DNA from: Pseudomonadota bacterium
GTDB taxonomy: Bacteria > Pseudomonadota > Gammaproteobacteria > Steroidobacterales > Steroidobacteraceae
Reading direction: 5' to 3'
Length of the DNA: 64,000 bases
NCBI GenBank assembly: GCA_037200975.1
Contig: JBBCGI010000001.1
Coordinates: 3,989,716-4,053,715, forward strand
Both the position numbers and the translations under genes were made by a program. Positions 1,698 to 50,539 of this stretch are shown here, one piece after another (positions within the stretch are counted from its first letter, which is position 1; the number at the start of each line of letters is the position of its first letter). Under the pieces are notes generated by a model. It was given only the letters and a program-made list of their open reading frames with translations, was not told where the DNA came from and made no database searches.

Positions 1698-2915
1698 ATG
1701 AAATTCGTCGATGAAGCGCGCGTAAAGGTCCAGGCAGGCAATGGCGGCCGCGGCTGCGTGAGCTTCCGGCGCGAGAAGTTCGTCCCCTTCGGCGGCCCCG
1801 ACGGCGGTGACGGCGGCATGGGCGGCAGCATCACGCTGCGCGCGCGGGATGGCATCAACACGTTGGTCGATTTCCGCGTGGAGCGGACGTTCCGCGCCAA
1901 GAACGGCGAGCCGGGCGGCGGCCGCGACTGCTTCGGCCGCGGCGGCGAAGACATGCTGGTGATGGTGCCCGTGGGCACGATCGTGCGCGACGCGGATACC
2001 GGCGAAGTCCTGGGCGACCTGGCGAAAGCGGACGTCGAGCTGCTGGTCGCGCGGGGCGGCAAGGGCGGCTGGGGCAACCAGAGATTCAAGAACAGCAAGA
2101 ATCGTTCGCCGCGCCAGTTCGGCCCGGGGCTGCCCGGCGAGCAGCGCACGCTCGACCTCGAGCTCAAAGTGATCGCGGATGTGGGTTTGCTGGGCCTGCC
2201 GAATGCGGGCAAGTCCACGCTCATCAGCGCCGTGTCCGCCGCGCGACCGAAGATCGCCGACTATCCGTTCACCACGTTGTATCCGAATCTCGGCGTGATC
2301 AGCTGCGGCAACCAGCGCAGCTTCGTCATGGCGGACATCCCGGGCCTCATCGAGGGCGCCGCTGACGGCGCCGGTCTCGGCATCCGCTTTCTCAAACATC
2401 TGCAGCGCACGCGCGTGTTGCTGCACCTGGTCGACATCGCGCCGACCGATCCGAATGCGGATCCGGTCCGCGATGCGATCTCCATCGTCGGCGAGCTCGG
2501 CAAGTTCAGTGAGGATCTGCTCGCGAAGCCGCGCTGGCTCGTGCTCAACAAGAGCGATCTGATGCTGCCGGATGAAGCCGCGGCGAAAGCGGTGTCGATC
2601 GCGCAGGCGTTGAAATACCGCGGGCCGGCGTTCCTGATTTCGGGTGCGACGCATGCGGGTACGACCGACCTGACCGAGGCGGTGATGAGCTTCATCGAGT
2701 CCGGCGAAGCGCCGGCGCAGGGAAACCTGCCGCTTCCCGTCCCGGTCCAGCGCGCCCGCAAGGTGGCGTTTAAAAAGGCGACCAAGAAAACGGCGAAGAA
2801 GGCGGCGAAGAAGGCGGTCAAGAAGGCACCGCGAATGAAGCGCAAGGCCGCCACGGCCGTGAAAGCAAAGGCCAGGAAGAAGGCCGGCACGCGCCGGAAT
2901 CCGCGTCGCCGGTAG
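1698..2915 (+). CDS. obgE: Obg-family GTPase with lysine/alanine-rich C-terminal tail
   Basis: This is the essential ribosome-assembly and stress GTPase (also CgtA). The glycine-rich Obg fold occupies about residues 1-158, followed by the G domain: GLPNAGKS (166-173), a switch II DIPG motif (about 217-220) and NKSD as the base-specificity motif. The 405-residue length exceeds the family's usual 340-390 because the last 55 or so residues form a very basic tail of repeated KKA/KKT units ending RRNPRRR, resembling histone H1-like or RNA-binding tails. This tail replaces the acidic C-terminus found in E. coli ObgE. A terminator lies immediately upstream, so its expression is at least partly separated from rplU-rpmA. 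Confidence 0.96.
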
Positions 2916-3033
2916 CTAGGCAGACGAAGGCGGACATAGTGGGCTCCGCGACAGGCATGGCTGTCGCAAATCGGCGGGATGCGGCAGAGGAGAACGGGAA
3001 CGTCCGTTCACCGAACCAGGGGAGCCTCATCCA

Positions 3034-4221
3034 ATGAAGTACGCCACACTTGTATGCCTTTGCATCGCTCTGAGTCTTGCGAGCAAGGCGGGTGCCACCG
3101 GCCGGTCGTCGCGCTATCAGATTACGAACGTCGAATCGCCGGCGCTGTCGGATCCGGCCTGTCTGCCCGGCCACGCGGTGCGCACCGTCGCATGGGGCAT
3201 CAACGATTTCGGCACCGTGGCCGCCGACTATCTTTGCTACGTCGTGAGTGCGAACGCGCCAGTCGTGCAGAGTTTCGGCAAGGGCTTCATCTGGTCGCGC
3301 TTTCTTGGCGCCCAGGCCATCCCCACACCCGCAGGCTCACAGGGCGTGCATGCTCAAAGCGTCAACGACTGGGGCCAGGTATTCGGCCGGGAAATCACCA
3401 GCTCGGGCGAGGCTTATGGCGTTCAGTGGGCGCCCTATGGCGCCTATCAGCGCAACTTCACGGGTTCGAGCTGCGGGGCCATCGACGGCGCAGTCGCCGG
3501 CAGCCTCACTGGTTTTTCCGTGGCGTGGGGACTGCGGCCGGATGTCGCGACTGGTGCGTGTTCGGTCAAATGGCTGATCCGCGCGCCGTGGGGTGCCATC
3601 TCCGAGGGGCCGGTGGGCGGTCAGCCCTGGGACCTCAATGTGCGCAACGTCGCCGTGGGCGATGCCGGCAGCGCAGCGGTGAAAGTGCAGGTGCCGTCGG
3701 GCCGTACGCAGGTCTTGTTCGCCGGTACTGCAACGACATTTGGACGCGCCCAGGACATCAACGATGACGGTGAAGTGGCCGGCTATCTCAGCCAGCAGAA
3801 CAAGTTCTGCGGACAGGCAACTGCCGCAAGCTGGGATCGTGACGGCCGCATTCAAATCTTGCCGCATTTGCGCGGGCAGGCGTCCAGCCGTGCACATGCC
3901 ATCGGTGACGACGAGGTCGTCGGTCAATCCGGCCCCGGCCTGTATTGCGACAAGCCCTATAGCGAAGAAGAACGAGCCGTTATCTGGCAGTCGCGGCGCG
4001 TTACGGATCTCAACAGCCTGATTCCTGGCTGGCTGGGAATAACGTTGACGCGCGCAGTGGGCGTGAACCACAAAGGCCAGATCGCCGTCATCGGATTCAG
4101 GACTGCCGAACCGCTCGCAGAATGCCCGGTGCTCACCTGGGATGAGAACGACAACCCGCTGCTCGACTACTCGAAGAAGTGCCGCAATTTTCACAGCTTC
4201 GTGCTGACACCGATTCACTAG
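3034..4221 (+). CDS. Secreted protein with HAF-like repeats
   Basis: The 395-residue protein begins with a signal peptide (MKYATLVCLCIALSLASKAGA, probable cleavage after AGA), so it is exported. The body contains recurring short units of the type INxxGxVxG: GINDFGTVAA, SVNDWGQVFG, INDDGEVAGY and VNHKGQIAVIG. This spacing resembles the HAF family of predicted extracellular repeat proteins, which probably form a beta-propeller-like fold. The function is unknown. GGGGAG lies upstream of the ATG. It stands alone, converges on rpsT and ends at a shared bidirectional terminator. The assignment to the HAF family is by motif resemblance only. Confidence 0.8.
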   Translation: MKYATLVCLCIALSLASKAGATGRSSRYQITNVESPALSDPACLPGHAVRTVAWGINDFGTVAADYLCYVVSANAPVVQSFGKGFIWSRFLGAQAIPTPAGSQGVHAQSVNDWGQVFGREITSSGEAYGVQWAPYGAYQRNFTGSSCGAIDGAVAGSLTGFSVAWGLRPDVATGACSVKWLIRAPWGAISEGPVGGQPWDLNVRNVAVGDAGSAAVKVQVPSGRTQVLFAGTATTFGRAQDINDDGEVAGYLSQQNKFCGQATAASWDRDGRIQILPHLRGQASSRAHAIGDDEVVGQSGPGLYCDKPYSEEERAVIWQSRRVTDLNSLIPGWLGITLTRAVGVNHKGQIAVIGFRTAEPLAECPVLTWDENDNPLLDYSKKCRNFHSFVLTPIH

Positions 4222-7305: not shown

Positions 7306-10143
7306 GTGGCCGACTACAAGAGCACGATCAATCTCCCCGAGACCGGCTTTCCTATGAAGGCCGATCTCGCGCAACGCGAACCGAAAATGCAGGCCGCCTG
7401 GGAAGCCGGCGACCTGTACGGCAAATTGCGCGCGATCGCGCGCGGCCGGCCGCGCTTCGTGCTGCACGATGGACCGCCGTACGCCAACGGCGCGTTACAT
7501 CTCGGTCACGCGGTGAACAAGGTGCTCAAGGACATCGTGGTCAAGTCGCACTCGCTCGATGGTTACGATTCGCCGTACGTGCCGGGCTGGGACTGCCACG
7601 GGCTGCCGATCGAACACGCCGTCGAGAAGAAAGTCGGGCGCGTGGGCGCGAAGATTTCGGCGAAAGATTTCCGTGCGGCCTGCCGCAAGTTCGCGACCGA
7701 ACAGGTCGAGCTGCAGCGCAGCGAGTTCAAGCGTTTCGGCGTGTGGGGCGACTGGAAACATCCCTATCTCACGATGGATCCGCACTTCGAGGCGCAGCAG
7801 ATCCGCGCGCTCGGCCACATCATCCGCAACGGGCATCTGTACAAAGGCGCCAAGCCGGTTCACTGGTGCCTGGATTGCCGCTCGGCCCTCGCCGAGGCGG
7901 AAGTCGAGTATGAAGACAAGATCTCCGCGGCGGTCGACGTGGAGTTCCGCGTTGCCGACAACGGCGATCTGGCGCGCCGCATCGGCGTGAGCCCCGATGT
8001 CATCGGTGCGTTTCCAGTTTCCATTCCGATCTGGACGACCACACCCTGGACGCTGCCGGCGAACGAGGCAGTTAGCCTCGGGCCGAAGATCGAATACGTG
8101 TTGCTCTGGGTGTCGCGCAACGGGCAGTCCGAGTTGTTAGTCCTGGCAAACGAGCTGCTGGACGCTTCGCTGACGCGTTATGGCTTGAACAAGGGCCAGG
8201 TGCTGGTGCAGTTCGAAGGCGCTGCGCTCGAACATCTGCAGCTGCAGCATCCATTCCTGCCCAAACACGTACCGGTGATCGTGGGCGAGCACGTGACGCT
8301 CGAAGCGGGCACCGGCGCCGTGCATACCGCGCCCGCGCACGGCCAGGACGATTTCATCATCGGCCAGAAGTACAGCCTGCCGGTCGACAACCCGGTGATG
8401 GGCGACGGCCGCTTCCGCGAAGGCACGCCGTTCGTCGCGGGAATGAAGATAGACGAGGGCGGCGAGGTCCTGATCAAGGAGCTCGAGAGCCGCGGTCGCC
8501 TGCTCAAGCACGAGCAGATCAAGCACAGCTACCCGCATTGCTGGCGCCACCACACGCCGGTGATCTTCCGCGCGACGCCGCAATGGTTCATCAGCATGAA
8601 CCAGAACCATTTGCGCGAACACGCATTGCGCGACATCAAGAAGGTGCAGTGGACGCCGGCCTGGGGCGAGCAACGCCTCGCGGGCATGATCGAGAACCGC
8701 CCGGACTGGTGCATCTCGCGCCAGCGTACCTGGGGTGTGCCGATCGCGCTGTTCGTCCACAAGCAGACTCAGGCGTTGCATCCACGCACGGCCGAACTAC
8801 TCGAGCAGGTGGCCGCGCGCATCGACAAGGACAATATCGAAGCCTGGTTCGAGCTCGATCCGCGCGAGTTGCTGGGCGACGAGGCCGACTCGTACGAGAA
8901 AGTGGCCGACGTCATGGACGTCTGGATGGACTCGGGGCTGTCGCACGAGTGTGTGCATCACACCCATCCCGACGACGTGAAGCCGCCGGTCGATCTGTAT
9001 CTCGAAGGCTCGGACCAGCATCGCGGCTGGTTTCACTCTTCGTTGCTGACTTCGGAAGCGCTGTACGCGCGCGCGCCTTACAAGGGCGTGCTGACGCACG
9101 GCTTCACGGTCGACGAGAAGGGTCGCAAGATGTCCAAGTCGCTGGGCAACGTGATCGCGCCGCAGAAGATCATGTCCACACTCGGCGCCGACATCATGCG
9201 CCTGTGGATCGCCGCGACCGACTACGCGAACGAGATGAGCCTGTCGGAGGAAATCCTCAAGCGCATCTCGGATTCGTATCGCCGCATGCGCAATACGGTG
9301 CGGTTCCTGTTAGGCAATCTCGCGGGGTTCGATCCGGCCGCGGACCTCTTACCCGCGGACCAGATGGTCGCCATCGACCGCTGGGCGCTGGCGCGTGCCG
9401 CGGCGCTGCACGAGGAGATCGCCGACGCGTATCGCAAGTACGAGTACCACCTGATCTACCAGAAGATTCACAACTTCTGCATCGTGGATCTGGGCGGCTT
9501 CTATCTGGATATCCTCAAGGACCGCCTCTACACCACGCCGAAGAAAAGCGTGGCGCGGCGTTCCGCGCAGACCGCGCTATTTCACATCGCCGAAAGCATG
9601 GTGCGCTGGCTCGCGCCGATCCTGTCTTTCACGGCCGATGAGATCTGGGCGTTCCTGCCCGGCAAGCGCAGCGAATCGGTGTTCCTCGAGACCTGGCACG
9701 AACTGCCGAAGGTCGCCGAAGACCCGATCGACTGGAACGGCTTCATCGCGTTGAAGACCGCGGTTTCGCAGGAGATGGAAAAGCTGCGCGTCGCCGGCAC
9801 CATCGGCGCGCCGCTCGACGCCGAAGTCGAAGTGTTCTGCAAGGACGACTACCTGGCGAAGTTCCAGGCGCTCGGCGAGGAGCTGCGGTTCCTGCTGATC
9901 ACCTCGGAGGCGCGCGTGAAGCGCGTGAGCAATGCGGCCGGCCCGCCGGTCGGCGCCATCAAGGTGGCCGAGATCGCGAAGGAAGGCGGGTTGTGGATCC
10001 GCGTGCAGCCGACCAGCGCGCCCAAGTGCGAACGCTGCTGGCATCACCGGCCCGAGGTGGGCTCTCTGCCTGAGCATCCGACGTTGTGTGAACGGTGCGT
10101 GACCAACGTCACGGGGCCGGGCGAATCGCGGAAGTACGTATGA
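7306..10143 (+). CDS. ileS: Isoleucyl-tRNA synthetase
   Basis: This class I aminoacyl-tRNA synthetase charges tRNA-Ile. The GTG at 7306 gives [17 protein letters not shown], matching the E. coli N-terminus, and has AGAGGA 11 bases upstream. A GTG at 7297 is in frame but sits only 2 bases from that site. The 945-residue protein shows the HIGH-type motif ANGALHLGH, an editing domain, KMSKSLGN, and a C-terminal zinc finger (CERCWHH...LCERC). Its stop overlaps the lspA start (ATGA). The order ribF-ileS-lspA-ispH is typical of gammaproteobacteria. Confidence 0.97.
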
Positions 10144-15579: not shown

Positions 15580-16497
15580 GTGAATCCAGACGGGCCGGCG
15601 AGCCCAAACCCTGCAGGCGATGACCAGCCCGCGCGCTGTTCGATGTGGATCCGCGTCTTCTCGCGCATCCCGCTCGCGCTGTGGTACCCGATCGCGCGTT
15701 TCATGGCCTGGTGCGCCTGGCGTGTGTTCCCGTATCGCCGTCACGTGGTCGACGCCAATCTCAAGGCGGCTTTCCCCGAATGGGACGAGGGCACGCGCGA
15801 ACGCGTGATCCGCGACTACTACCGCGGCTTTGCCGACATGCTGGTCGAGGTCATGCATTCGCTGCGCCTCACGCCCTGCGAATTGCAGCGCCGCGTGACG
15901 CTCGTCAATCCCGAGCTGGTGCGCGACCAGGTGGCGCTCGGCAAGCCGGTGCTGCTGGTGGCCGCGCATCAATGCAACTGGGAGTGGATGCTGCTCGGGC
16001 TCTCGACGCAGCTCGGCATCCCGGTCGACGCCGCCTACAAGCCGCTGATCGACAACTGGGCGGAAGTCGAGATGCGCAAGCTGCGCGGCCGGTTCGGCGC
16101 CCGGCTGATCCCGGCGCAGGAGTTGTTAGGCGACATCATCAGGCAGCGCGGCGTGCCACGCGCCATCGCCATGGTGGCGGACCAGGAACCGGTGTCGAGC
16201 GAGCGCAAGCAGTGGCTCAAGTTCCTCAATCGCGATACGGCGTTTTTTCTGGGGCCCGAAGAGATCACGCGCACGACGCGTTACGCGGCGTTTTTCCTGC
16301 GCCTGCGGCGCAAGGCGCGCGGCCGGTACGAAGTGGAGTTCGTGAAGCTCGCCGAGGCGGGCGAACAGCTGCCCGCCGGCGAATTCACGGCGCGTTATGC
16401 CCGCCTGGTCGAGGAGCAGATCCGCGCGGCGCCCGCGGACTGGCCCTGGTCGCACAAGCGCTGGAAGCTCAAAAAACCGCTTTATTGTCCAAACTGA
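15580..16497 (+). CDS. LpxL/HtrB-family lysophospholipid (lipid A) acyltransferase
   Basis: The protein belongs to the LpxL/LpxM/LABLAT acyltransferase family, which transfers acyl chains to lipid A precursors or related lipids at the inner membrane. It has 305 residues with the GTG start at 15580 (AGGA 9 bases upstream); a TTG directly before it or the ATG at 15643 are alternatives. A hydrophobic N-terminus (SRIPLALWYPIARFMAWCAW) precedes RRHVVDANLKAAFPE. The catalytic HX4E box is HQCNWEWM near residue 130, and MVADQEP with RDTAFFLGPE follow. Which member (lauroyl, myristoyl or ornithine-lipid type) cannot be told. It is separated from the upstream tRNA by 265 bases containing one GC-rich hairpin and nothing else recognisable. 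Confidence 0.88.
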   Translation: MNPDGPASPNPAGDDQPARCSMWIRVFSRIPLALWYPIARFMAWCAWRVFPYRRHVVDANLKAAFPEWDEGTRERVIRDYYRGFADMLVEVMHSLRLTPCELQRRVTLVNPELVRDQVALGKPVLLVAAHQCNWEWMLLGLSTQLGIPVDAAYKPLIDNWAEVEMRKLRGRFGARLIPAQELLGDIIRQRGVPRAIAMVADQEPVSSERKQWLKFLNRDTAFFLGPEEITRTTRYAAFFLRLRRKARGRYEVEFVKLAEAGEQLPAGEFTARYARLVEEQIRAAPADWPWSHKRWKLKKPLYCPN

Positions 16498-16598
16498 CTT
16501 GACCTAATGCGCCGATCGGGTTGTTAGTCTCCCGAACCCTACGTCGCTGCGTCGCGACGGCGCCGGTGTTTCCACGGGCCCTTAATCTGGGGCCACGT

Positions 16599-17957
16599 AT
16601 GAACAACACGACCACTTCCCATGAAACTCCAGCTACGTTGCTCGCGCCGCTGGCGCGTGGCCTCATGCGCCGCGCTCCAGAAATTCTCTCCCTGTCGATC
16701 CACGACGCGCGTGGCAATGCGCTCTGGTCGAGCGGCGACTTCCTGCTCGCGGAAGACTGCGCGCTGATCGCGGAAGTGGTCGAAGATCCGCATGACGTGC
16801 GCGGGCGCTCCGACGGCCTGTGGTGGGAGAGCGCGGATACCGCTCGCGCACGTTGTGCACTTGCGATATTCGAGGGAGCGGAATTCCGCGGCGTGACGCT
16901 GGTGGTGTTTTCGGGCCTGACCACGGGCGAGAGCGAACGCGGCGAGCGGGTCACCGAACTTGCGCCGGTGTTGCCGGTGCTCGGCAAGGCGTTGCGGATG
17001 CTCAAGTCCGAAGAGCCCGAACCGGCTCCGCCGCCGTCGCGTGTGGCCTCCGACACCACGGTCATCGCGGCGCTGCGCTTCGAGAATATTGCTTCGACGG
17101 AAGGGGGCGCACGCGACGAACTGGCCGAGGACCTGGCGACTCTCGAACGCGAAGAGCGGCTGCTCTCGCTCATCGATGTCGCGCTGCGCGACGACGAATT
17201 CGCGCTGCACCTGCAGCCGATCGTCTCGCTGCGCGATGAGACTTCACAGCTGATCGTCGAGGTGCTGATCCGCCTTCCCACGGAGGAATTCGGCGTGCTG
17301 GCCTCGCATGATTTTCTCGAAACGGCCGAACGCCACGGGCGCATGCCGGCCATCGACCGCTGGGTCATTCGCGCGCTGCTCGTCTGGATGCAGCGCAATC
17401 GCGAGCGCTGGGCCGATGTCAACGCGGTGTTCTCGGTGAACCTGTCCGGCCGATCGGTGGTGCGCCCGGATTTCCGCGACTATCTCGAAAATTGCCTCGA
17501 CAAATCGGGCCTGCCGCTGACCTCGCTGCGCTTCGAGATCGCCGAGCTCGACATGAGCCTGGCGCCGCAGGAGTTCGCGTCGCTGGCACGTTCGCTGGCG
17601 GATCGCGGCTGCGAGGTGTCGGTCGACAATGCCGGCACCGGCAGCGGACGCTTCGAATTCCTGCGCGAAGTGAACGCTGACATCCTCAAAATCGACGGCT
17701 CGCTGGTGCAGGGCGCATCGGACGACATCGTCTCGCGCGCGCTGATCAACGGCCTGGTGCACATGGCCGACACATTGGGCATGCGCACCGTGGCGAGCCA
17801 GGTGGATTCCACCGGCAAGCTGCGCGCGGTCACGCAGCTGGGCGTGGACTATGCGCAGGGGTTTCAGCTGAGCTCACCCGAACACATCGACACGTTCGAG
17901 TTCCTTGCCTGCGGCAGGCAGCGCTCGCCCGACGGCGGGGCGGCGGCTCCGACGTAG
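16599..17957 (+). CDS. Degenerate EAL-domain protein
   Basis: In this 452-residue cytoplasmic protein the N-terminal 190 residues have no recognised domain and are followed by an EAL domain. Several catalytic positions deviate from active c-di-GMP phosphodiesterases. The signature ExLxR appears as EVLIRL and NLSGRS is retained. The second site EITE appears as EIAELD, the metal-binding DDFGTG appears as DNAGTG, and the AEGVET loop appears as ASQVDS. LKID and QGF are kept. Loss of the second Asp of DDFG and of the loop Glu argues against catalysis, so it is more likely a c-di-GMP receptor or protein-interaction module. The ATG at 16599 was chosen, with a weak RBS. Confidence 0.85.
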   Translation: MNNTTTSHETPATLLAPLARGLMRRAPEILSLSIHDARGNALWSSGDFLLAEDCALIAEVVEDPHDVRGRSDGLWWESADTARARCALAIFEGAEFRGVTLVVFSGLTTGESERGERVTELAPVLPVLGKALRMLKSEEPEPAPPPSRVASDTTVIAALRFENIASTEGGARDELAEDLATLEREERLLSLIDVALRDDEFALHLQPIVSLRDETSQLIVEVLIRLPTEEFGVLASHDFLETAERHGRMPAIDRWVIRALLVWMQRNRERWADVNAVFSVNLSGRSVVRPDFRDYLENCLDKSGLPLTSLRFEIAELDMSLAPQEFASLARSLADRGCEVSVDNAGTGSGRFEFLREVNADILKIDGSLVQGASDDIVSRALINGLVHMADTLGMRTVASQVDSTGKLRAVTQLGVDYAQGFQLSSPEHIDTFEFLACGRQRSPDGGAAAPT

Positions 17958-17989: not shown

Positions 17990-18919
17990 TCAGCGCGCCG
18001 GGCGCTCCGGCAGATGACGTACACGCGCCTGGTAGTCGCGCAGTAGTTCGGCGGCGAATTCGGCGAACACGCGCACCTTGGCCAGATGCTGGGTGGCACG
18101 CGGATACACCACGCTGAGCGCCGGTCCCTCGCACGAGAACTCGCGCAGGATCTCCACCAGTCTGCCCTCCGCGAGATACCCGGCCACCAGCAGATCGGAG
18201 CTCTGCAGGATCCCCTGGCCCTCGAGCGCCGACGAGGTGATGGGCTCCGTCGTGTTGAATGCGAGCGTGCTCTGGATACGCAGCTTCATGACGCCGTTGC
18301 CCTGCTTGAACGTCCATGCAGGCCGGGCGCCATCGGCGCGCAGGTAACCGATGCAGCGATGTTGCTTGAGATCGGCCGGTGTACGCGGCACACCTGCGGC
18401 GGCGATGTAGGCCGGCGCGGCGCAGGTCACGAGCCGGGAAGTTGCGATCCGCTTCGCGATCAGATCGGGAGTGCGGATGGTGCCGGCGCGCACCGCCACG
18501 TCCACGCCTTCGGCCGCGAGGTCCACGAAGCGATCGTTGTAACGCACTTCGATCGCGACCTGCGGATACCGCTGCGTGAAGCGCGGCAGGGCGGGGGTCA
18601 GCAGGTGTTTGCCGAAGGCGACCGGGACATCGACGCGCAGGCGCCCCTGGGGGCGGTCGCGCGCCAGGCGCATCTCGTCATCCGCCGCCGCGACCTCCGC
18701 GAGAATGCGCTGGCAATGCGCGAGATAGACCGCGCCTTCGGGCGAAACAGAAACCTTGCGCGTGGTCCGGTGCAGCAGGCGTGTGCCGAGGTGTTTCTCG
18801 AGCTGCGCCACGTGGGCGCTGACCATGGCGCGCGACAGGTCCATGGCATCCGCGGCGCGCGCGAACGAGCCGAATTCCGCGACCCGGGCGAAAACCCGCA
18901 TTCCGAGCAGTTGGTCCAT
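17990..18919 (-). CDS. LysR-family transcriptional regulator
   Basis: The 309-residue regulator has an N-terminal winged HTH (MRVFARVAEFGSFARAADAM, LSRAMVSAHVAQLEKHLGTR, LLHRTTRKVSVSPEG) and a LysR substrate-binding domain (RLRVDVPVAFGKHLLTPALP onward). It matches the CrgA/DsdC-like subgroup common in proteobacteria. The ATG at 18919 (MDQLLGM) fits the family start; the longer frame upstream does not. The target is unknown. It is convergent with the EAL gene and faces the small membrane gene at 19024 across about 100 bases, a possible divergent target. Confidence 0.92.
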   Translation of the reverse strand: MDQLLGMRVFARVAEFGSFARAADAMDLSRAMVSAHVAQLEKHLGTRLLHRTTRKVSVSPEGAVYLAHCQRILAEVAAADDEMRLARDRPQGRLRVDVPVAFGKHLLTPALPRFTQRYPQVAIEVRYNDRFVDLAAEGVDVAVRAGTIRTPDLIAKRIATSRLVTCAAPAYIAAAGVPRTPADLKQHRCIGYLRADGARPAWTFKQGNGVMKLRIQSTLAFNTTEPITSSALEGQGILQSSDLLVAGYLAEGRLVEILREFSCEGPALSVVYPRATQHLAKVRVFAEFAAELLRDYQARVRHLPERPAR

Positions 18920-19023
18920 GGGCCTGGATTGTATGGCAGGACCGGACAATGAATTACGTTTTGCCCGGTTTTTGAAACCCAATGCGCCGGTTAGGTTACA
19001 CACCGCGCAAAGGAGTCATTACC

Positions 19024-19194
19024 ATGTTCCTGGTCGATCGTTCCCCGCTCGCCGTGTTGCTGCCGCTCGCCCTGCTGGTGGGAGCGGTGTTGTGGTCCAA
19101 CCATTCAGGTGGAGCCTCGGGGAAGCAGTCCGCCTCGCGGACGCAGCACGAGCAGCAGGATCAGACGGTCGCGGCCAATTTGCCCTCGAGGTGA
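19024..19194 (+). CDS. Small single-pass membrane protein (hypothetical)
   Basis: This 56-residue frame has a strong ribosome site (AAAGGAG, 6 bases before the ATG), one transmembrane segment (SPLAVLLPLALLVGAVLW) and a hydrophilic Ser/Gln-rich tail. No family is recognised. Its last 34 bases overlap the 3' end of the convergent acyl-AMP ligase gene, which is unusual but possible. The good RBS and the clear membrane segment are the only support. Confidence 0.5.
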   Translation: MFLVDRSPLAVLLPLALLVGAVLWSNHSGGASGKQSASRTQHEQQDQTVAANLPSR

Positions 19195-21134
19195 CGCGAC
19201 AGCTCGGCGATGGTCGGGAAGTCGAACAGCTCGGTGAGGTCGACCAGCCCCGGATAGACGCGATCGATCTGCTCGTGGATCTCGATGAGCTTGAGCGAGC
19301 TGGCGCCGATCTCGAACAGGTTGTCGTTCACGTCGATGTTGCGTTCCAGCGCGGCATCGCAGATGTCCTTGATCCGGAGTTCGATTTCCGTGCTCGTGGC
19401 CTTCGCACCGCCGGCCGCTTCGAGCTGTGCACGAAGCGAACCGATCTCGGCCATCTCCGCGGCGAACACGCCGTTCTCGTAATCCGCGGCGAGCAGGCCG
19501 CGCTGGATTTTTCCGCTGGTGGTCTTGGGCACGCGTTTGACCGGCACCACGTGCGCGACTTCGAGACCGGTATGTTCGTTGACCAGGCGCGTGACCTGCG
19601 CGGCGATGGGCATGAACTCCTTCATGTCCATGCGATGCAGCACGAAGATGATGAGGTCGTCGGTGCTCGCACCCTTCGGGCGCACGCCGGCGGCAACCAC
19701 CTTGCCGAGCTCCAGGCCGTCGGCCCGCTGCGCGATGCTCTCGATGTCGTGCGGGTAGTAGTTCTGCCCGTTGACGAAGATGATCTCCTTCGCGCGGCCG
19801 GTGATGAAGAGTTTGCCGCCCTTCATCATTCCGAGATCGCCGGTGCGCAGCCAGCCGTCGGCCGTGAAGCCCTTGGCATTGGCTTCCGGGTTTTCGAAGT
19901 AACCCTTCGTGACGTTGTCGCCGGAGATGAGGATGTGGCCGATGTGGTTCTCGGGCAGTTCACGATCGTCGTCGCCCGCGATGCGCACCTTGCTGAAGGG
20001 CACCGGCTGGCCCACGGCCATGATCGACAATGCATCGGCGTGATCGGCCGGCAGCAGGGCAGGTTGTTTGCCCACGTTGAGCTCATGGCGATTCACCGAG
20101 ATGGATTCGTACATCTCGCCCGGCGGCTGCGGGAAGCTGACTACCAACGTGGCTTCGGCGAGGCCATACACCGGGTACATCGCCTCGCGCCGCAGTTTCG
20201 CCGGCGCCAGCCGCGTCATGAATTCGTCCGCGAGTTCGACGGAGATCGGTTCCGCGCCGTTGTAGATGAGCCGCACGGTCGACAGATCGAGATCTCCGAG
20301 CTCGCGTTCGCCGAGCACTTTCAGGTAGTGCCGGAAACCGAAGTTCGGCGAACTCGTCACCGTGACCTGCTTGCGCGATGCGAACGTCATCCACAGCAAC
20401 GGCCGGCGGATGAATAGTTCGGTGGGCATCACGTTCAGCTGCATGCGATGCGCGAACATCATGATGTGCATGCCGATCAGGCCCATGTCGTGGGTCAGCG
20501 GCATCCACGTGAGATTCGTGTCGTGTTCGCCCCATTTCGATGCCTCACCCGCGCCGCGCGCGTTCTTGAGGATGTTGTCGTGCGTGAGCACGATGCCTTT
20601 GGGCTCGCTGGTCGAACCGGAGGAAAACTGGATGAACGCGGTATCGCCGGGTTTGACGGCGTGCACCTGGCCGGCTTTCGAGATGTCGTCGACCTGCTCG
20701 GCGAAGAACGCACGCGTGTTGAGCGAATCGAACGTCGCCTGCTCGCCGGCGCCGCCCGCGAACGCGCCGATGCGATCGAGCGTCTTGCGGTCGGTATAGA
20801 TGAAGGGCGTGCCCAGCTTCCGCGCGATGCGCAGCAGCTTGTGTTTGTGCTCGTCGCTGATGCCCAGCGCCACGGGCACCGGAATGATGCCGCCCAACAT
20901 GCCGGCCCAGAACGCATCCAGGAACTGCTCGTTGTTGGCGAGATAGATGATGAGCTTGTCGCCGGGCCGGGCGCCGAGTTTCTGCAGGTGGTGCAGGATG
21001 CCGAGCGCGCGCTCGTACAATTCGCCGTAACTCACCACCCGTTCGCTGGTCTCGGTTTCGAGATAACTGATGGTGCGTTTCACCGTGCGGTTCACGGTGA
21101 TCAATTCGGCCAGTGTTTGTGCGCTCGTGTTCAA
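19161..21134 (-). CDS. Fatty-acyl-AMP ligase-like enzyme fused to a C-terminal carrier protein
   Basis: This 657-residue enzyme is an ANL-superfamily adenylation protein that activates a carboxylic acid as acyl-AMP. Its core motifs are FIQFSSGSTSEPKGI (phosphate loop), YGLAEATLVVSFPQP, GWLRTGDLG, and a hinge GRAKEIIFVNGQNYYP; it aligns best with FAAL-type rather than CoA-forming ligases. The last 80 or so residues form an acyl-carrier domain with the phosphopantetheine serine in GASSLKL (Ser613). It therefore probably loads an acyl group onto its own carrier domain. The start overlaps the P450 stop by 4 bases, so the two are translationally coupled, suggesting that the P450 oxidises the carrier-bound acyl chain. 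The substrate is unknown. Confidence 0.88.
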   Translation of the reverse strand: MNTSAQTLAELITVNRTVKRTISYLETETSERVVSYGELYERALGILHHLQKLGARPGDKLIIYLANNEQFLDAFWAGMLGGIIPVPVALGISDEHKHKLLRIARKLGTPFIYTDRKTLDRIGAFAGGAGEQATFDSLNTRAFFAEQVDDISKAGQVHAVKPGDTAFIQFSSGSTSEPKGIVLTHDNILKNARGAGEASKWGEHDTNLTWMPLTHDMGLIGMHIMMFAHRMQLNVMPTELFIRRPLLWMTFASRKQVTVTSSPNFGFRHYLKVLGERELGDLDLSTVRLIYNGAEPISVELADEFMTRLAPAKLRREAMYPVYGLAEATLVVSFPQPPGEMYESISVNRHELNVGKQPALLPADHADALSIMAVGQPVPFSKVRIAGDDDRELPENHIGHILISGDNVTKGYFENPEANAKGFTADGWLRTGDLGMMKGGKLFITGRAKEIIFVNGQNYYPHDIESIAQRADGLELGKVVAAGVRPKGASTDDLIIFVLHRMDMKEFMPIAAQVTRLVNEHTGLEVAHVVPVKRVPKTTSGKIQRGLLAADYENGVFAAEMAEIGSLRAQLEAAGGAKATSTEIELRIKDICDAALERNIDVNDNLFEIGASSLKLIEIHEQIDRVYPGLVDLTELFDFPTIAELSRHLEGKLAATV

Positions 21135-22450: not shown

Positions 22451-22573
22451 TGCGCGGAATGATATAGCAATGCGGTTAGACGGCGGGTTTGGGCTCGATC
22501 AATCGCCGACGTTTCATTGCAGCCAGCGGCGGATTCACCGACAATTCGCGCCTCTTTTGCCGGCCTCAACCGG

Positions 22574-23335
22574 ATGCCAAACGATTCCGAAGACGCAGGC
22601 GGACTGCGCAATACCCTCTACAAGAAGGAGACCCGGTCGAAGCGTCGGATGACTCCGATGCGTCGCTTCGCCTGGCGGATCGTCGCGGCCGTGGGTGTGG
22701 GGTTGATCCGGCTTTTCTGGCGCAGTTGTCGCGTCGTGCGCATCGTGGGTGATGAACACACGGCACAGGCGCTGGCGAAGGCGCCTTCGCTGATCCCGGT
22801 GTACTGGCATCAACACCAGTTGTTCTGCTCGAAATATCTGCTCGAACAATCGGCGCGCGGATTGAAGCTCGGCTTCCTCATCAGCCCGTCGGTCGACGGA
22901 GATATCGGCGTGATGATCGTCTCGCGTTTCGGCGGCACGTCGATCCGCGGTTCGACCACGCACACCGGCGCACGCGCGCTGCGCGACTACTACGACGCAT
23001 TGACCAAGCAGGGTGTTTCGCCGTCGATCACGCCAGACGGGCCGAAAGGCCCGCGCTTCATTTTCAAGCCGGGCGCGATCCTGCTGTCGCAGATGTCGCA
23101 GCGCCCGATTTTGCCGATGGCCTATGCCGCGAGCCGCGCCTGGCTCATCGCGTGGGACAAGTTCGTCATTCCCTGGCCGTTCTCGCGCATCGTCATTGCC
23201 GTGGGGCCGCCGCGCCAGGTGCCGCGCGCGATCCAGCCGGCCGCACTCACCGCACTGCAGGCCGAGCTCGCGGACGAGCTGAAAAGATTGTTCGGCGTCG
23301 CGCGTGATGCATTGAGCGAGCGGGTGGCGGCATGA
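22574..23335 (+). CDS. DUF374-type lysophospholipid acyltransferase
   Basis: This membrane-associated acyltransferase-like protein has the HX4-type motif HQHQLFCSKYL, a SPSVDGDIGVMIVSRFGG segment, and ITPDGPKGPRFIFKPGAI, which is the hallmark of the DUF374 (LPLAT_DUF374) family, related to lipid A acyltransferases. The product has 253 residues from the ATG at 22574. A TTG at 22517 and ATGs near 22649 are alternatives, since no start has an obvious RBS. A hydrophobic segment (RIVAAVGVGLIRLFW) anchors it. Its stop overlaps the glycosyltransferase ATG (ATGA), so they are co-translated. Confidence 0.85.
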   Translation: MPNDSEDAGGLRNTLYKKETRSKRRMTPMRRFAWRIVAAVGVGLIRLFWRSCRVVRIVGDEHTAQALAKAPSLIPVYWHQHQLFCSKYLLEQSARGLKLGFLISPSVDGDIGVMIVSRFGGTSIRGSTTHTGARALRDYYDALTKQGVSPSITPDGPKGPRFIFKPGAILLSQMSQRPILPMAYAASRAWLIAWDKFVIPWPFSRIVIAVGPPRQVPRAIQPAALTALQAELADELKRLFGVARDALSERVAA

Positions 23336-24057
23336 GCGTGGATTTCTCCGTCGTCGTGCCGGTGTGCAATGAAGCCGAGAACGTCGAGCCGCTGGCGCGC
23401 GAGATCGATGCGGCGCTCGGCGGCCGCGCCTACGAAATGATTTTCGTGGACGACGGCAGCACCGACGACACGGCCGCCATCCTGCTCAAACTCAAGAGCG
23501 TGCTGCCGGCGCTGCGCGTGCTGCGCCATTCGTTTCGCAGCGGCCAGAGCGCGGCCGTGGCGAGCGGCGTGCGCGCGGCGCGTGCGCCGTGGATCGCCAC
23601 GCTCGACGGTGACGGGCAGAACGATCCGGCCGATATCCCGAAGCTCATCGCGGCGCGCGATGCGGCGGCCAACCGCGGCGTGCAGCTGTTCATGGGCAAC
23701 CGCAAGGCCAGCCGCAAGGACACCGCCTTTCGCAAGCTGCAATCGAGCGTCGCCAACGGCGTGCGCGGCGCCTTGTTAGGCGACGGCACGCCCGACACCG
23801 GCTGCGGCATCAAGCTCTTTTCGCGCGACCTGTTCCTCGAGCTGCCGCGTTTCGATCACATGCACCGTTTCCTGCCGGCGCTGTTCCAGCGGCACGGCGC
23901 GTCGGTGATCTCCGTGCCCGTGAGCCACCGGCCGCGCACGCGCGGCACGTCGAAGTACGGGATGCTCAATCGTCTGTGGGTCGGCATCGTCGACATCGCG
24001 GGTGTCATGTGGCTGCGCCGCCGCTACAAGAGCGGCCTGCTGGTGCGGGAAGACTGA
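23332..24057 (+). CDS. Family 2 glycosyltransferase, DPM1/ArnC-like
   Basis: The 241-residue cytosolic glycosyltransferase has a GT-A fold: SVVVPVCNEAENV at the N-terminus, FVDDGSTDDT, ATLDGDGQNDP as the DXD-type metal site, and GCGIKLFSRDLF. It lacks the C-terminal membrane helices of ArnC, so it resembles soluble dolichol/undecaprenyl-phosphate mannose synthases. The probable role is to make an undecaprenyl-phosphate sugar donor. The adjacent LAB_N protein and PMT-type transferase would be the partners that use it. Its start overlaps the upstream acyltransferase. Confidence 0.9.
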   Translation: MSVDFSVVVPVCNEAENVEPLAREIDAALGGRAYEMIFVDDGSTDDTAAILLKLKSVLPALRVLRHSFRSGQSAAVASGVRAARAPWIATLDGDGQNDPADIPKLIAARDAAANRGVQLFMGNRKASRKDTAFRKLQSSVANGVRGALLGDGTPDTGCGIKLFSRDLFLELPRFDHMHRFLPALFQRHGASVISVPVSHRPRTRGTSKYGMLNRLWVGIVDIAGVMWLRRRYKSGLLVRED

Positions 24058-24074
24058 GAAGGAAGGGGCGTCGC

Positions 24075-24383
24075 ATGAAAGAAGTCATTCTCGTGGCCTT
24101 TGGCATCACGGTCACGCCCTGGAAACTCGTGGGCTTTCTCGGCGCGCTGATGTTCGCGGGCCGCTGGATCATCCAGGCGCTGGCGACGCGCCGGCACGGC
24201 AAGCCGACGATCCCGCGCAGCTTCTGGGTCATCAGCCTCGCGGGCAGCGCGATGGTCACGTCGTATTTCATCTGGGGTAAGAACGACGCGGTCGGCGTGT
24301 TGACCAACCTGCTGCCCGCGTCCGTGGCGTTCTACAACCTGATCATGGACATCAAGTCCGGACGCGCGGCCGCCAATGCCTGA
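24075..24383 (+). CDS. Standalone LAB_N (lipid A biosynthesis N-terminal) membrane protein
   Basis: This 102-residue, three-helix protein has PWKLVGFLGALMFAGRWIIQ, SFWVISLAGSAMVTSYFIWG and LPASVAFYNLIMDIKS. These correspond to the LAB_N domain, found at the N-terminus of some LpxB proteins and as a free protein beside PMT-type glycosyltransferases, where it may assist polyprenyl-linked sugar transfer. The ATG at 24075 is preceded by GGAAGGGG. It overlaps the next gene by 8 bases. Confidence 0.85.
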   Translation: MKEVILVAFGITVTPWKLVGFLGALMFAGRWIIQALATRRHGKPTIPRSFWVISLAGSAMVTSYFIWGKNDAVGVLTNLLPASVAFYNLIMDIKSGRAAANA

Positions 24384-26442
24384 TATCGGTTTGTTGGGGG
24401 GCTCGCCTGGGCCGCGTGTCGTTCCGCCGCCAGTGCCGCGTGTTTCTGCGCCGTCTTTTCCGGCGGTGCCGCCGAGCGATGCGGCGGATTCCGCCGCGCC
24501 CCTCGCGCGCGCGGAGGCAGTCGCGGTTGCCGCGCACTTCCTGGCGCCGGTCGCCGCGGCGCCCATCGCGATAGTTAGTGTGCCGGTGTCGCTGGCGCCG
24601 GAACCGACGGCGTCCGCTCAATCCAGCGTGACATCTGCGCAGACCGCGCTCGCCGCCGCAAGCAGCGAATACGCGCCCGAACCTGTGCCCCCGCCGACGC
24701 CCGTTCCGCCCGCGGCAGTCGCGCCCCGGCCGCTGATCTCCATGCCGACGCCGATCCGCTGGAGCGATCTGCTGTGGCTGGCTTTCGCGTTGTTAGTCGT
24801 GATCGGCACCGGGCTCGGCATCCGCGACCCCTGGCCCGCGGACGAGCCGCGATTCGCGGTGGTCGCGCGCGACATGGTCGCCACGGGTGAGTGGCTGTTC
24901 CCGCGCGTCGGCGGCGATCTGTACCAGGACAAGCCGCCGCTGTTCTTCTGGCTGCTCGCGGTTTGCTTCACGCTGACCGGCTCGCTCAAATGGTCGTTCC
25001 TGATTCCCGCCTTCAGCGCTGCGGGCGGCGTGTTGTTCCTGGTCTACGACCTGGGCCGACGGCTCGTCGGCCGTGAAGCCGGATTCGCCGCGGCGCTGGT
25101 GCTGTGCTTCACGCTGCAGTTCGTGATGGTGTTCCGCGGCGCGCAGATCGATCCCGTGTTGTGTTTCCTCACGACGTTGTCGTTGTACGCGCTGCTGCGC
25201 CATCTGTTGCTTGGACCGGCCTGGCGCTGGTATTTCCTCGGCGGCTTCGTCGCGGGGCTCGGCATCTTCACCAAGGGCGTGGGTTTCCTGCCGCTGTTGG
25301 CGTTGATTCCGTTTTTCCTGCTGCGCGGGTTCCGCTGGCAGGGTCTCGCGGCCATCGACGCGGGCCGGGGCGGCTGGCGCTGGTGGCTCGCGCCGGCCGC
25401 GATGTTGCTCGCCGTCTGCCTGTGGTTCATTCCGATGCTGCTCGCAGTCGCCGCGAGCGGCGCGCCCGAGTACGCGGCCTATCGCGACGAGCTGCTGTTC
25501 AAACAGACCGTGGGCCGCTATGCGGCTTCGTGGCATCACGTGAAGGGCTGGTACTACTTCATCGTCGAAGTCATCCCGCCGTTGTGGTTGCCGTTCAGCC
25601 TGCTGCTGTTCTGGCTGGTGCCGAAATTCAGGACCGCGTTTCGCGAACGCGACGCGCGCGTGTGGCTGCCGCTGGGCTGGTTGCTGCTCGTGCTGCTGTT
25701 CTTCTCGTGGAGCCCGGGAAAACGCGGCGTGTACATCACGCCGGCCTTGCCGGCGCTGGCCCTCGCGTCGCTGCCGTTCATCGAGGCCGTACTGGCGCGC
25801 GCTGGCGTGCGGCGCGCGGGGCTCATGCTCGGCTCGGCCTTCTTCCTCGTGGCGGCGGCATTCGCTATTGCCTGGTCGACGCACGCGAAGTTCGCCGTCG
25901 ATACGCTCGCGGCCGCCAACCTGGACGGTCCGGGCGCCGTCTATGTCTACCTTTCGCTGTGCGGCACGGGGCTTGTCTACGCCTTCACACGTGCGCCGCT
26001 GGCTGCCTGGCCGGTGGCGATCGGTTCGCTCGCGGTCGTGTTCTCGTATTTCATCGCGCCCTCGATGAACGGCGAACGATCGGGCGGGGATTTCACGCGC
26101 GCCGCGCTCGCGCAGGTCAAACCCGGCGAGCAGCTCGCCCTGGTCGCTTACAAGGAGCAATTCCTGCTCTACCTCGACCGGCCCATCGTGAACTTCGGGC
26201 ACCGGCGTGTCTTCGAGGGGCCGCAGGAATCCTTCGACGCCTCCGCCTGGCTCAACGCGGCACCGGATCGGGTGCTGCTCGTGCCGGCCGATCAGCTCGC
26301 GCCTTGCTTCGTCGCAAACGTGGCGAAGGCGGGCTTCACGTCGGGCGAGGATTGGTCGCTGGTGCGGGCTCCGGCGGCAAATGCGTGCGCGGAGAAGGGC
26401 GACGCGCGACGGGCGATTCGTTACGTAATCACGCAGCGTTGA
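24376..26442 (+). CDS. ArnT/PMT-type membrane glycosyltransferase with Pro/Ala-rich N-terminal extension
   Basis: The 688-residue polytopic GT-C enzyme transfers a sugar from an undecaprenyl-phosphate donor to a lipid or protein on the periplasmic side. The catalytic loop has IRDPWPADEPRFAVVARDM, the DE motif of ArnT-like proteins, followed by LYQDKPPLFFWLLA and then about a dozen hydrophobic helices and a soluble C-terminal domain. The first 130 or so residues are low-complexity Pro/Ala/Val sequence, absent from typical ArnT. That region may be a cytoplasmic linker, or the true start may be internal near the first helix (for example around MPTPIRWSDLLW). It overlaps the LAB_N gene. Confidence 0.88.
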   Translation: MPDIGLLGGSPGPRVVPPPVPRVSAPSFPAVPPSDAADSAAPLARAEAVAVAAHFLAPVAAAPIAIVSVPVSLAPEPTASAQSSVTSAQTALAAASSEYAPEPVPPPTPVPPAAVAPRPLISMPTPIRWSDLLWLAFALLVVIGTGLGIRDPWPADEPRFAVVARDMVATGEWLFPRVGGDLYQDKPPLFFWLLAVCFTLTGSLKWSFLIPAFSAAGGVLFLVYDLGRRLVGREAGFAAALVLCFTLQFVMVFRGAQIDPVLCFLTTLSLYALLRHLLLGPAWRWYFLGGFVAGLGIFTKGVGFLPLLALIPFFLLRGFRWQGLAAIDAGRGGWRWWLAPAAMLLAVCLWFIPMLLAVAASGAPEYAAYRDELLFKQTVGRYAASWHHVKGWYYFIVEVIPPLWLPFSLLLFWLVPKFRTAFRERDARVWLPLGWLLLVLLFFSWSPGKRGVYITPALPALALASLPFIEAVLARAGVRRAGLMLGSAFFLVAAAFAIAWSTHAKFAVDTLAAANLDGPGAVYVYLSLCGTGLVYAFTRAPLAAWPVAIGSLAVVFSYFIAPSMNGERSGGDFTRAALAQVKPGEQLALVAYKEQFLLYLDRPIVNFGHRRVFEGPQESFDASAWLNAAPDRVLLVPADQLAPCFVANVAKAGFTSGEDWSLVRAPAANACAEKGDARRAIRYVITQR

Positions 26443-48409: not shown

Positions 48410-50539
48410 TCAGTTGCCGGCCGGCTTTTCCGGCGCCCCCGCGTTCGCGACTTCGACGTCTCGCGCGACTTCGTCACGAATCCGCGCCCAGTGGAACAGG
48501 TTGTCCGGATTGGCATCGAAAGAATTGCCGTTGTAGGCCGTGAGCTTCATGTCCTTGTAGATAGGCCGCGTGATGCGGATCACCTCGTCCCAGTAAGCCA
48601 AGGCCCGTTCGAGATGGCCGATCGCCGCCCGGCGATGGCCCTCGCCGCCGCTGCTGCGAAAGGTCTGGAGCTCGACCGCGCCACGCAGCTTCTCGGCCAG
48701 GTGCAGGCCGAGGAACGCCCAGGTCCGCACGTCCGCCACTTCGTACATGAGCGAGGCATTGCGCGATGTATCGATGCCTTGCACGAGCCGCAGCGCTTCG
48801 CGGCAATCGCGCTCGAGCATCTGGCTGAGTTGCAGTGGCGTTACGCGGTCGGCCGCGAAAGTCTGTTTGTCGTGCAACGCCTGCACGTAGTCGGCTACCG
48901 AAACGTAGGCAGGATCCATCGTGGGTTGTTTGATCAACGCGTCGACGCCGATGTAATGCGTCTCCTCACCCTGCAGCGCCAGGAATCCCTCGCTGTAGAG
49001 CGTGAAGTCCCAACGCGAATCGAACAGCGAAGCGAGCCGCAGCTGGGTGTTCGAAGACAGCGCGTACGCGCGCAACAGGTTCCCGGCCTTCGGCCCGTAG
49101 CGGCGCTTAAAGTCCGCCTGGAAAGTGGAGTCGGGTGTCGTCGGGTCGTAGAGCAATCGCCCCCACAGTTCGTAGAACAGCCACTGCCGCTCGAAGGCCC
49201 ACTTCCAGTCGACGGGCTGGTCGCTGGCCGTGAAGTAGTCGAGCGCGGGGATATACGTCTCCGAGCCGATGAAATAACCGCCGACGTAATCCTGCGCGCC
49301 ATTCAGGCGGATGTGTTCGCGGATGAAATCCGGCACACCCCAACGCAGCGCGAAGAAATCCTCGTTGCGGACCTGCCAGACGATCTTGTAGTTGGACGGC
49401 GTCGGTTTGAAATACGTGTCGCCGAGCTTGCCGCCATGCACCTTGACCAGCTTCGGCGTCGAGTGGCCGTGCGACCAGTTGAATTTCATCTCGACCCAGA
49501 TCGGCCCGTCGAACTGATTGCCGAGTTTCTCCATTGCCGCGCGCGTCATCTGCTCGACATCGGTGCTCACGCCGGGGCCGGAAGACAGCCCTGACGAAAA
49601 CGGCACGCGATGAATGAGTTTGACGGGTTGCTTGCGTTTCGCGTTCAGCGCGCCGGCGATGTAGACCTCATCGACGAACTGCTGGCGCTGCAGCGGCGTC
49701 ATCTCCGCCATGCCTTCGCCGTGCGAGACCCCGATGCCATCGAGGTCCGGGTACTCCTCCAGCATCTGCGTCACGCTCTCGCGCAGGTACCGCTTGGTGA
49801 TGTCGGAGGTGTCGCCCGGCACGTAGTAGTGCGGGTAGAAGTTCTGCTTCGCGACACCGTGGGCTTTGGCGAATTCCTCGCTGACGAAGATGCTCCAGAA
49901 CACCACGTAGGTGTCGAGGCCGCGCTCCTTGGCCATGCGGAATATTTCGCGATACAGATGCTGCCATTGCGCAAACTCGGCGTCGGTCCACTTGCTGGCT
50001 TCCGGAAAGTTCTTCGGCCGGATCATGTAAGTGAACGGGTGCATGGTCCACAGGCTCACCGCGTTGAAGCGGTTGTCGACCATCATGTCGAGGAAGGCTT
50101 CCCAGTACGCGAGGTCGCGCACCGTGTCGAAATGTTGATCGAGCGCGGAGCTTGGCCGGTAGGTGTCCCACGGTGTGTTGAACTTGATGCCGCGGAAGCT
50201 CTCCGCGGGTTTGACCGGCCGGGCCGAGAGCTTCGCGAAATCGACGCCGTCGCGTAGTTGCTCGCGGGCCGCGAGCGCGCCGTAGATGAGGCCGCGTGCG
50301 TCGCCGCCTGTGATGACCACGTGGCGATCGCGTGCGGCGATCGAGAAGGATTCCGCGCCGAGTTTTGCGTCCACCGCGAGCGTGACCTCGCAGCGCGGAG
50401 AAGCAGGCAGCGCGGATTCGAGGCGCCGCTGTGCGTAGGCCGCTTGTATCGACTGATCCGAATGGATCTGGCAGGCGCCAGCCGCGGCGCTGGCCAGCAA
50501 CCCGAGCGATGCGAGCAGGACATTCAGGCGTCGGTTCAC
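48410..50539 (-). CDS. Secreted glycoside hydrolase-like TIM-barrel protein, family unassigned
   Basis: The protein has 709 residues with a signal peptide (LNVLLASLGLLASAAAGACQ) from the GTG at 50539; a further GTG start at 50581 is possible but adds an odd N-terminus. A zincin-like N-domain typical of GH20/GH67 (LAVDAKLGAESFSIAARD, GLIYGALAAREQL) leads to a barrel with GIKFNTPWDTYRP, RFNAVSLWTMHPFTYMI, YPDLDGIGVSHGEGMAEM and VEMKFNWSHGHSTPKL. GH67 alpha-glucuronidase-like activity is possible but the catalytic residues could not be matched. It is convergent with the MmcQ gene. Confidence 0.7.
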   Translation of the reverse strand: MNRRLNVLLASLGLLASAAAGACQIHSDQSIQAAYAQRRLESALPASPRCEVTLAVDAKLGAESFSIAARDRHVVITGGDARGLIYGALAAREQLRDGVDFAKLSARPVKPAESFRGIKFNTPWDTYRPSSALDQHFDTVRDLAYWEAFLDMMVDNRFNAVSLWTMHPFTYMIRPKNFPEASKWTDAEFAQWQHLYREIFRMAKERGLDTYVVFWSIFVSEEFAKAHGVAKQNFYPHYYVPGDTSDITKRYLRESVTQMLEEYPDLDGIGVSHGEGMAEMTPLQRQQFVDEVYIAGALNAKRKQPVKLIHRVPFSSGLSSGPGVSTDVEQMTRAAMEKLGNQFDGPIWVEMKFNWSHGHSTPKLVKVHGGKLGDTYFKPTPSNYKIVWQVRNEDFFALRWGVPDFIREHIRLNGAQDYVGGYFIGSETYIPALDYFTASDQPVDWKWAFERQWLFYELWGRLLYDPTTPDSTFQADFKRRYGPKAGNLLRAYALSSNTQLRLASLFDSRWDFTLYSEGFLALQGEETHYIGVDALIKQPTMDPAYVSVADYVQALHDKQTFAADRVTPLQLSQMLERDCREALRLVQGIDTSRNASLMYEVADVRTWAFLGLHLAEKLRGAVELQTFRSSGGEGHRRAAIGHLERALAYWDEVIRITRPIYKDMKLTAYNGNSFDANPDNLFHWARIRDEVARDVEVANAGAPEKPAGN

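Follow-up and report, generated by a model that had tools for sequence, protein, structure and literature searches.

A probable LAB_N-bearing glycosylation cassette inserted in a conserved FAAL-P450-LpxJ locus of the Steroidobacteraceae

A 64,000-nucleotide stretch of the genome of a Steroidobacteraceae bacterium (assembly GCA_037200975.1, contig JBBCGI010000001.1, positions 3,989,716 to 4,053,715; hereafter the window) carries at 22574-26442 a run of four genes encoding a DUF374 acyltransferase, a family 2 glycosyltransferase (GT2), a small LAB_N protein and a PMT-type glycosyltransferase. Divergent from this run lie genes for a cytochrome P450 and a fatty acyl-AMP ligase (FAAL). The genome is one contig of 4.65 Mb. 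Taken singly, these enzymes are ordinary; it is their combination that is new, a probable three-component glycosylation cassette that has LAB_N at the place of the flippase (ArnE/F or GtrA) and is inserted in a conserved FAAL-P450-LpxJ locus. The features concerned, with protein lengths in amino acids (aa), are the following.

19161..21134, minus strand: FAAL fused to a PP-binding (acyl-carrier) domain, 657 aa
21131..22450, minus strand: cytochrome P450, 439 aa
22451..22573: divergent intergenic region between P450 and DUF374
22574..23335, plus strand: DUF374 / LpxJ-family acyltransferase, 253 aa; Pfam DUF374 65.9 bits, cut-off 26.8
23332..24057, plus strand: GT2 polyprenyl-phosphate-sugar synthase, 241 aa; Glycos_transf_2 92.5 bits
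24075..24383, plus strand: LAB_N protein of the 'TPWK' subtype (type B), 102 aa; LAB_N 65.8 bits
24376..26442, plus strand: ArnT-like GT-C (PMT), 688 aa; PMT_2 64.5 bits
24376..24738, plus strand: Pro/Ala-rich N-terminal extension of the PMT, 121 residues
26624..29299, plus strand: PAS-GGDEF-EAL protein, a frequent neighbour 3' of DUF374 or the cassette
15643..16497, plus strand: LpxL-type (Lip_A_acyltrans) gene, domain match 15658-16467

The initial annotation had described the four plus-strand genes as overlapping or nearly touching and as diverging from a ligase-P450 pair, and the coordinates bear out both descriptions. The end of DUF374 overlaps the GT2 start by 4 nucleotides (nt), a 17-nt spacing with a purine-rich, Shine-Dalgarno-like stretch leads from GT2 to LAB_N, and the LAB_N and PMT reading frames overlap by 8 nt. 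The P450 and FAAL genes both lie on the minus strand and overlap by 4 nt, the FAAL start codon being either TTG at 21134 or GTG at 21095. Taking the first ATGs as starts, the divergent gap between P450 and DUF374 measures 123 nt, and a promoter scan of 22451..22573 returned no sigma-70-type consensus.

Profiles made from the window and its kin were run on 60 stretches of relatives and on 80 loci retrieved with a FAAL alignment (genomes and loci of relatives bear G and L numbers, respectively), and 50 of the latter, referred to as long loci, have at least 8 kb upstream of FAAL. DUF374 is found in 45 of the 50 long loci, 39 of which hold the P450 as well. The most constant neighbour is the PAS-GGDEF-EAL gene (47/50), and this constancy hints at a link between cyclic di-GMP and the envelope locus. 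By combination, 32 long loci contain P450, DUF374 and GGDEF-EAL; five contain P450, DUF374, GT2, LAB_N, PMT and GGDEF-EAL, and two the same set without LAB_N; five have only DUF374 and GGDEF-EAL, and one has DUF374, GT2, PMT and GGDEF-EAL. The remainder comprise one locus with P450 and GGDEF-EAL, one with GGDEF-EAL alone and three with none of these genes. P450 and DUF374 occupy opposite strands in 74 of the 75 distinct loci that possess both, at a median distance of 89 nt between profile starts; with the count of complete six-gene loci given below, this makes the arrangement more than a chance one. Because of these combinations, counted in the long FAAL loci and in the DUF374 loci, the locus divides into a core, formed by FAAL-P450 divergent from DUF374 and then PAS-GGDEF-EAL, and an optional GT2-LAB_N-PMT cassette in one slot, ahead of GGDEF-EAL. 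The six-gene locus proposed earlier therefore stands as a conserved neighbourhood, with the full set of six genes in 9 of the 104 distinct DUF374 loci (the window, L070, L072, L079, L080, L114, L126, L147 and L197), many of the rest being cut short, but not as one fixed unit, since GT2 and PMT are present in just 8 of the 50 long loci, 5 of them with LAB_N (a count that overlooked one PMT, in L192). Nor do relatives keep DUF374 and FAAL-P450 in unrelated places, as independence would imply, for the counts above join them.

Elsewhere the cassette turns up with none of FAAL, P450 and DUF374 around it, one such setting being behind an LpxL-type gene. A PMT was assigned to the cassette above 300 bits, a cut chosen after seeing the gap between 328 and 172 bits, and 35 of the 66 cassette PMT genes have no DUF374 within 3 kb, some perhaps because of contig ends. 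Into this 3-kb test entered 46 DUF374 places, all in genomes with a cassette PMT. The test did not take in weak, distant homologues, none of which, judged by eye, lies on the same contig as the PMT. Two loci show interrupted cassette genes that may reflect either assembly error or cassette decay: the PMT of L070 (G221; 1780-3555) has one in-frame stop, and the GT2 of L073 (G204; 8826-9568) is frame-broken.

On the acyl side, the family once called DUF374 is LpxJ, which acts late in lipid A acylation in Rickettsia and Epsilonproteobacteria, and in the Rickettsia enzyme mutation of Trp60, His61, Asp86, Asp132, Trp172 or Asp173 abolishes activity (PMC6148475). The window protein presents W78, H79, D108, D155, W194 and D195 as the counterparts of the six essential R. 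typhi residues, an assignment that rests on the order and spacing of the motifs rather than on an alignment with the R. typhi protein, and these residues are identical in all 85 aligned DUF374 rows, rows under 200 bits being left out. Matches to the window DUF374 at E<=1e-10, some merely 26-30% identical, occur in 136 of the 150 family genomes. By the family and the six essential residues that it shares with LpxJ, the window DUF374 is a predicted LpxJ-type late acyltransferase; it differs from the LpxJ of Rickettsia and Epsilonproteobacteria in adjoining FAAL-P450 and, optionally, a sugar cassette, its activity being predicted. This family assignment supports the acylation role that had been suggested for DUF374, and it amends, for this gene, the suggestion of a decoration not recognised as a named pathway, DUF374 being a named lipid A acyltransferase family.

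The genome holds three LpxL-family matches, one of them inside the window, and some relatives have an LpxL-type gene next to FAAL. Between the LpxL-type gene and FAAL of the window sit an EAL gene (16593-17957) and a LysR gene (17990-19003). This arrangement recurs in G200 and L132, while G221 has LysR alone, its contig ending there; in the remaining relative loci there was no match at the cuts used, L090, the window's own locus, excepted. Farther along, a 723-aa minus-strand protein at 48410-50581 has no Pfam match at 0.001.

The FAAL has 'fatty acyl-AMP ligase' as its best NCBIfam model, at 346 bits against a cut-off of 600, and contains a PP-binding domain. Its closest match in the PDB is McyG, a natural-product loading enzyme, with FadD32 and FadD23 also among the PDB matches. 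Since the FAAL with its carrier domain resembles McyG most, within the PDB, and the P450 was not seen in 6 of the 45 long FAAL loci that retain DUF374, FAAL-P450 might constitute a separate secondary-metabolite route sharing only the promoter region with DUF374. We consider this doubtful: DUF374 stays with FAAL in nearly all long loci, whereas the flanking Fur, LpxL-type and LysR genes shift place, and a Pfam scan that covered 18 of the window proteins showed no synthase module.

On the sugar side, the best NCBIfam model of the GT2 is ArnC (93 bits, cut-off 529), as are its best PDB matches (1e-24). The protein matches about the first two thirds of the PDB ArnC chains, which are 322-363 aa long, the ArnC C-terminal stretch being missing. 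The PMT profile retrieved ArnT alone from the PDB at E<=1e-5 (8e-24), and one PMT Arg aligns with an Arg of solved ArnT. The roles previously given to these two genes, donor synthase and periplasmic transferase, are supported by their families; the label 'PMT-type' fits the PMT_2 domain and is here narrowed to ArnT-like, ArnT being the sole PDB match. The window PMT displays the motifs DEPRFA, YQDKP and QTVGRY. It has RFA where ArnT has RYA, whose Tyr43 is essential in Burkholderia ArnT, and across 75 distinct PMTs this position reads RF in 58, RY in 12 and neither pattern in 5. The ArnT motif YFEKP, with its essential Lys69, has a probable counterpart in the YQDKP of the window, which keeps a Lys, and the Lys-Pro pattern recurs in 72 of the 75. 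The first 121 residues form the Pro/Ala-rich extension, found elsewhere only in G200 (L278), where the frame is kept with gaps in multiples of three, and absent from G221 of the same genus. In other slots with PMT directly after LAB_N, the gap is at most 48 nt.

The candidate sugar 4-amino-4-deoxy-L-arabinose (L-Ara4N) was set aside. No ArnA-like protein is among the two Formyl_trans_C matches of the genome, read by eye, no ArnA model having been searched directly; one match reads as Fmt next to RsmB and the other lies beside an aldehyde dehydrogenase. Because neither protein resembles ArnA, the transferred sugar is probably not L-Ara4N.

The identity of the acceptor has to be weighed against these data. 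Proteins and other lipids are also among the substrates of PMT-type enzymes, and the acceptor could be another glycolipid, a hopanoid or a protein, with DUF374 and the cassette being neighbours in unrelated envelope pathways. The RFA of the window PMT in place of the RYA of ArnT, the prevalence of RF over RY among the PMTs, and a cassette that is optional beside DUF374 and occurs without it, are consistent with such an acceptor. Set against this are ArnT as the only PDB match of the PMT and the genes that head the cassette, which are of the LpxJ type in many slots and, in one genus, of the LpxL type. In that genus (g7), the LpxL-type gene precedes GT2-LAB_N-PMT by 15-104 nt in 9 of the 10 genomes whose contigs show this place, the contig of G270 stopping short of it. 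The same cassette is thus headed by lipid A acyltransferases of two unrelated kinds, which favours lipid A as the acceptor without proving it, and we hold a non-lipid A acceptor to have a rather low probability.

The LAB_N gene, in turn, is closely associated with GT2. Among the fetched loci, a GT2 gene stands directly before LAB_N on the same strand for 77 of the 90 distinct LAB_N genes; the other 13 include L030, which shows GT2 beside LAB_N in another count. A PMT-type gene follows directly behind LAB_N for 49 of the 90. At the level of the order, GT2 lies beside LAB_N in 30 of 30 loci (the best 30 of 36) and in the remaining six too, bar G024; at the level of the phylum, in 28 of 30 (the best 30 of 46). 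LAB_N itself is uncommon, being present in 35 of the 196 genomes searched from the order and in 45 of the 299 from the phylum. Across the 150 genomes of the family, LAB_N and the cassette PMT occur together in 59, LAB_N alone in 1, PMT alone in 6 and neither in 84, and a looser PMT cut, which takes in 112 of the 150 genomes, includes all 60 LAB_N genomes.

Two LAB_N subtypes were recognised by eye, a common type A and the 'TPWK' type B, which includes the window; in the co-occurrence count a Pfam score of 100 bits served as the dividing line. In the family, 29 of 61 LAB_N genes do not adjoin a cassette PMT: type A lies within 1.5 kb of PMT in 24 of 24 cases and type B in 8 of 37, so that the tie between LAB_N and PMT holds at the level of the genome even with the genes apart. 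Seven genomes have GT2 at the slot and no adjoining LAB_N; LAB_N lies elsewhere in six of them, and GtrA is present in three. The seventh, G167, has neither a detected LAB_N nor a PMT above 300 bits, and its GT2 adjoins DUF374 (L100), possibly as a decayed cassette or with another partner. The expectation that unlinked LAB_N genes would adjoin lipid A genes failed in eight of nine loci; in the exception, L245 (G264), LAB_N at 1155-1478 lies behind what by eye reads as lpxK-kdsB. Throughout the family the GT2s are related to one another, and so are the PMTs, with a middle gene that varies between type A, type B and unlinked. The GT2 tree pairs the window with G221 (87/82), and in the PMT tree it shares a clade of 11 rows (100/100) with members such as G221 and G197, the inner forks being partly unresolved. 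As this clade mixes LAB_N types (eight type A, two type B and one without adjacent LAB_N), it appears that the gene between GT2 and PMT was swapped or relocated and that these two remained in place.

Regarding what LAB_N is, the 58 proteins compared share Gly20, Phe27, Arg30, Gln34, Pro47, Phe50, Trp51, Ser54, Gly57 and Tyr64 (window numbering). The predicted structure of the window protein consists of helices 15-41, 48-69 and 72-101, with a mean predicted local distance difference test score (pLDDT) of 92; that of a type A protein reaches 91. Searched against all PDB sequences, the LAB_N profile gave six matches at E<=10, all SemiSWEETs, the best being 4qnc (3.3e-4). Three of these bear the name themselves, 4qnc and 4x5m are identified by title, and 4qnd is a further SemiSWEET entry. 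A weak MtN3_slv match is present in 10 of the 58 proteins. Pfam places LAB_N in the MtN3-like clan (PMC4499210), and a link to SWEET has also been described for GtrA, which is the flippase proposed for the classical systems (PMC7176098). By profile comparison, LAB_N is thus a relative of SemiSWEET, with which it shares a length of about 100 aa and three predicted helices; it differs in its linkage to GT2 and GT-C genes, and the fold match is weak. LAB_N is more than the vague 'helper' of the initial annotation, since it tracks the PMT of the cassette and has SemiSWEET kin.

The GT2 enzymes paired with LAB_N bear on its function. They are short, with a median of 242.5 aa over 84 distinct sequences, and 79 of the 84 have no hydrophobic segment at a strict cut; because of this, LAB_N may anchor GT2, flip its product, or both. 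In human cells, DPM2 and DPM3 anchor and activate DPM1. LAB_N could likewise be the membrane anchor or activator of a helix-less GT2, flipping being left to an unlinked protein, as the truncation of the window GT2 relative to ArnC and the two GtrA genes elsewhere in its own genome would allow. An anchor without transport is nonetheless unlikely in our view: the cut is strict enough that LAB_N itself scores one segment despite three predicted helices, and a relation to SemiSWEET transporters is not expected for a mere anchor.

Known systems offer close parallels. The ArnC-ArnE/ArnF-ArnT proteins, which carry out the L-Ara4N modification of lipid A (PMC9574504, PMC5377068), share with the cassette a GT2 donor synthase, a small membrane protein and an ArnT-like GT-C; the cassette differs in having LAB_N for the SMR-type ArnE/F and a short GT2, the window PMT in its RFA/YQDKP motifs instead of RYA/YFEKP, and the window genome in having no recognised ArnA-like protein. 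The plan of polyprenyl-phosphate donor, flippase and GT-C is likewise shared with the GtrA-GtrB-Gtr and pentofuranose three-component systems, whose flippases, in the accessible portion of PMC11127046, are of the GtrA, SMR and MATE types, none of them LAB_N. The unit contains both a GT2-type polyprenyl-phosphate-sugar synthase and a GT-C transferase and no flippase of these known types, its third gene being LAB_N; the two GtrA genes lie about 2.5 Mb away in contig coordinates, and the search for SMR and MATE genes was confined to the unit. In Chlamydiaceae, the LAB_N domain is fused to LpxB (PMC3937554), which ties it to a lipid A gene, whereas LAB_N is free-standing in the window. This fusion and the clan statement were all that was found on LAB_N (PF07578), and no paper tied LAB_N to flipping or the locus to a pathway, in a search with most subscription literature outside its reach.

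With somewhat better than even confidence, we propose that the cassette performs three-component periplasmic glycosylation, with LAB_N as the anchor of the short GT2, the flippase of a lipid-linked sugar, or both, and with lipid A as the most likely acceptor. On the cytoplasmic face, GT2 would load a sugar onto undecaprenyl phosphate. LAB_N would hold GT2 at the membrane and pass the lipid-linked sugar to the periplasmic leaflet, and the ArnT-like PMT would transfer the sugar onto the acceptor, which is most likely lipid A because DUF374, acting as a late acyltransferase, would be LpxJ-type. On the other strand, FAAL would load a fatty acid onto its own carrier domain, where the P450 would oxidise it, and the special acyl donor so made would serve DUF374 or the nearby LpxL-type enzyme.

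Several observations weigh against this proposal. DUF374 can do without the cassette, which most of the DUF374 loci seen lack. Of the 65 cassette-PMT genomes, 6 yielded no LAB_N, five of these being less than 90% complete and G265 93%, and the co-occurrence of the two genes (Fisher p 1.5e-33) is uncorrected for kinship. Eight of the nine unlinked LAB_N loci inspected have neighbours with no evident lipid A link, and in genus g7 the roughly 510 nt visible upstream of the G253 cassette belong to another, non-LpxL-type gene. In structure searches, a SWEET-type entry headed the Foldseek ranking of the window model and came second with the type A model, with no match at E<=0.001, and the 50 matches listed by a second comparison were helical proteins of other families, with no SemiSWEET. 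The flipping or anchoring attributed to LAB_N is inferred, and the oxidised acyl donor and the lipid A acceptor are suggested by family names and gene neighbourhood.

More tentatively, LAB_N may represent an additional type of flippase for undecaprenyl-phosphate sugars, one with the SemiSWEET architecture, pairing with short, anchor-less GT2s across the Pseudomonadota and, in the Steroidobacteraceae, joined to a lipid A locus with a P450-oxidised acyl chain and LpxJ. The FAAL-P450-LpxJ core suggests that this environmental family builds a lipid A acyl chain by a route that the papers retrieved here do not describe. As a small SemiSWEET-related family, usually with GT2 and often with GT-C, LAB_N provides a compact test system, and the locus points to this little-known small protein as a likely carrier of lipid-linked sugar.

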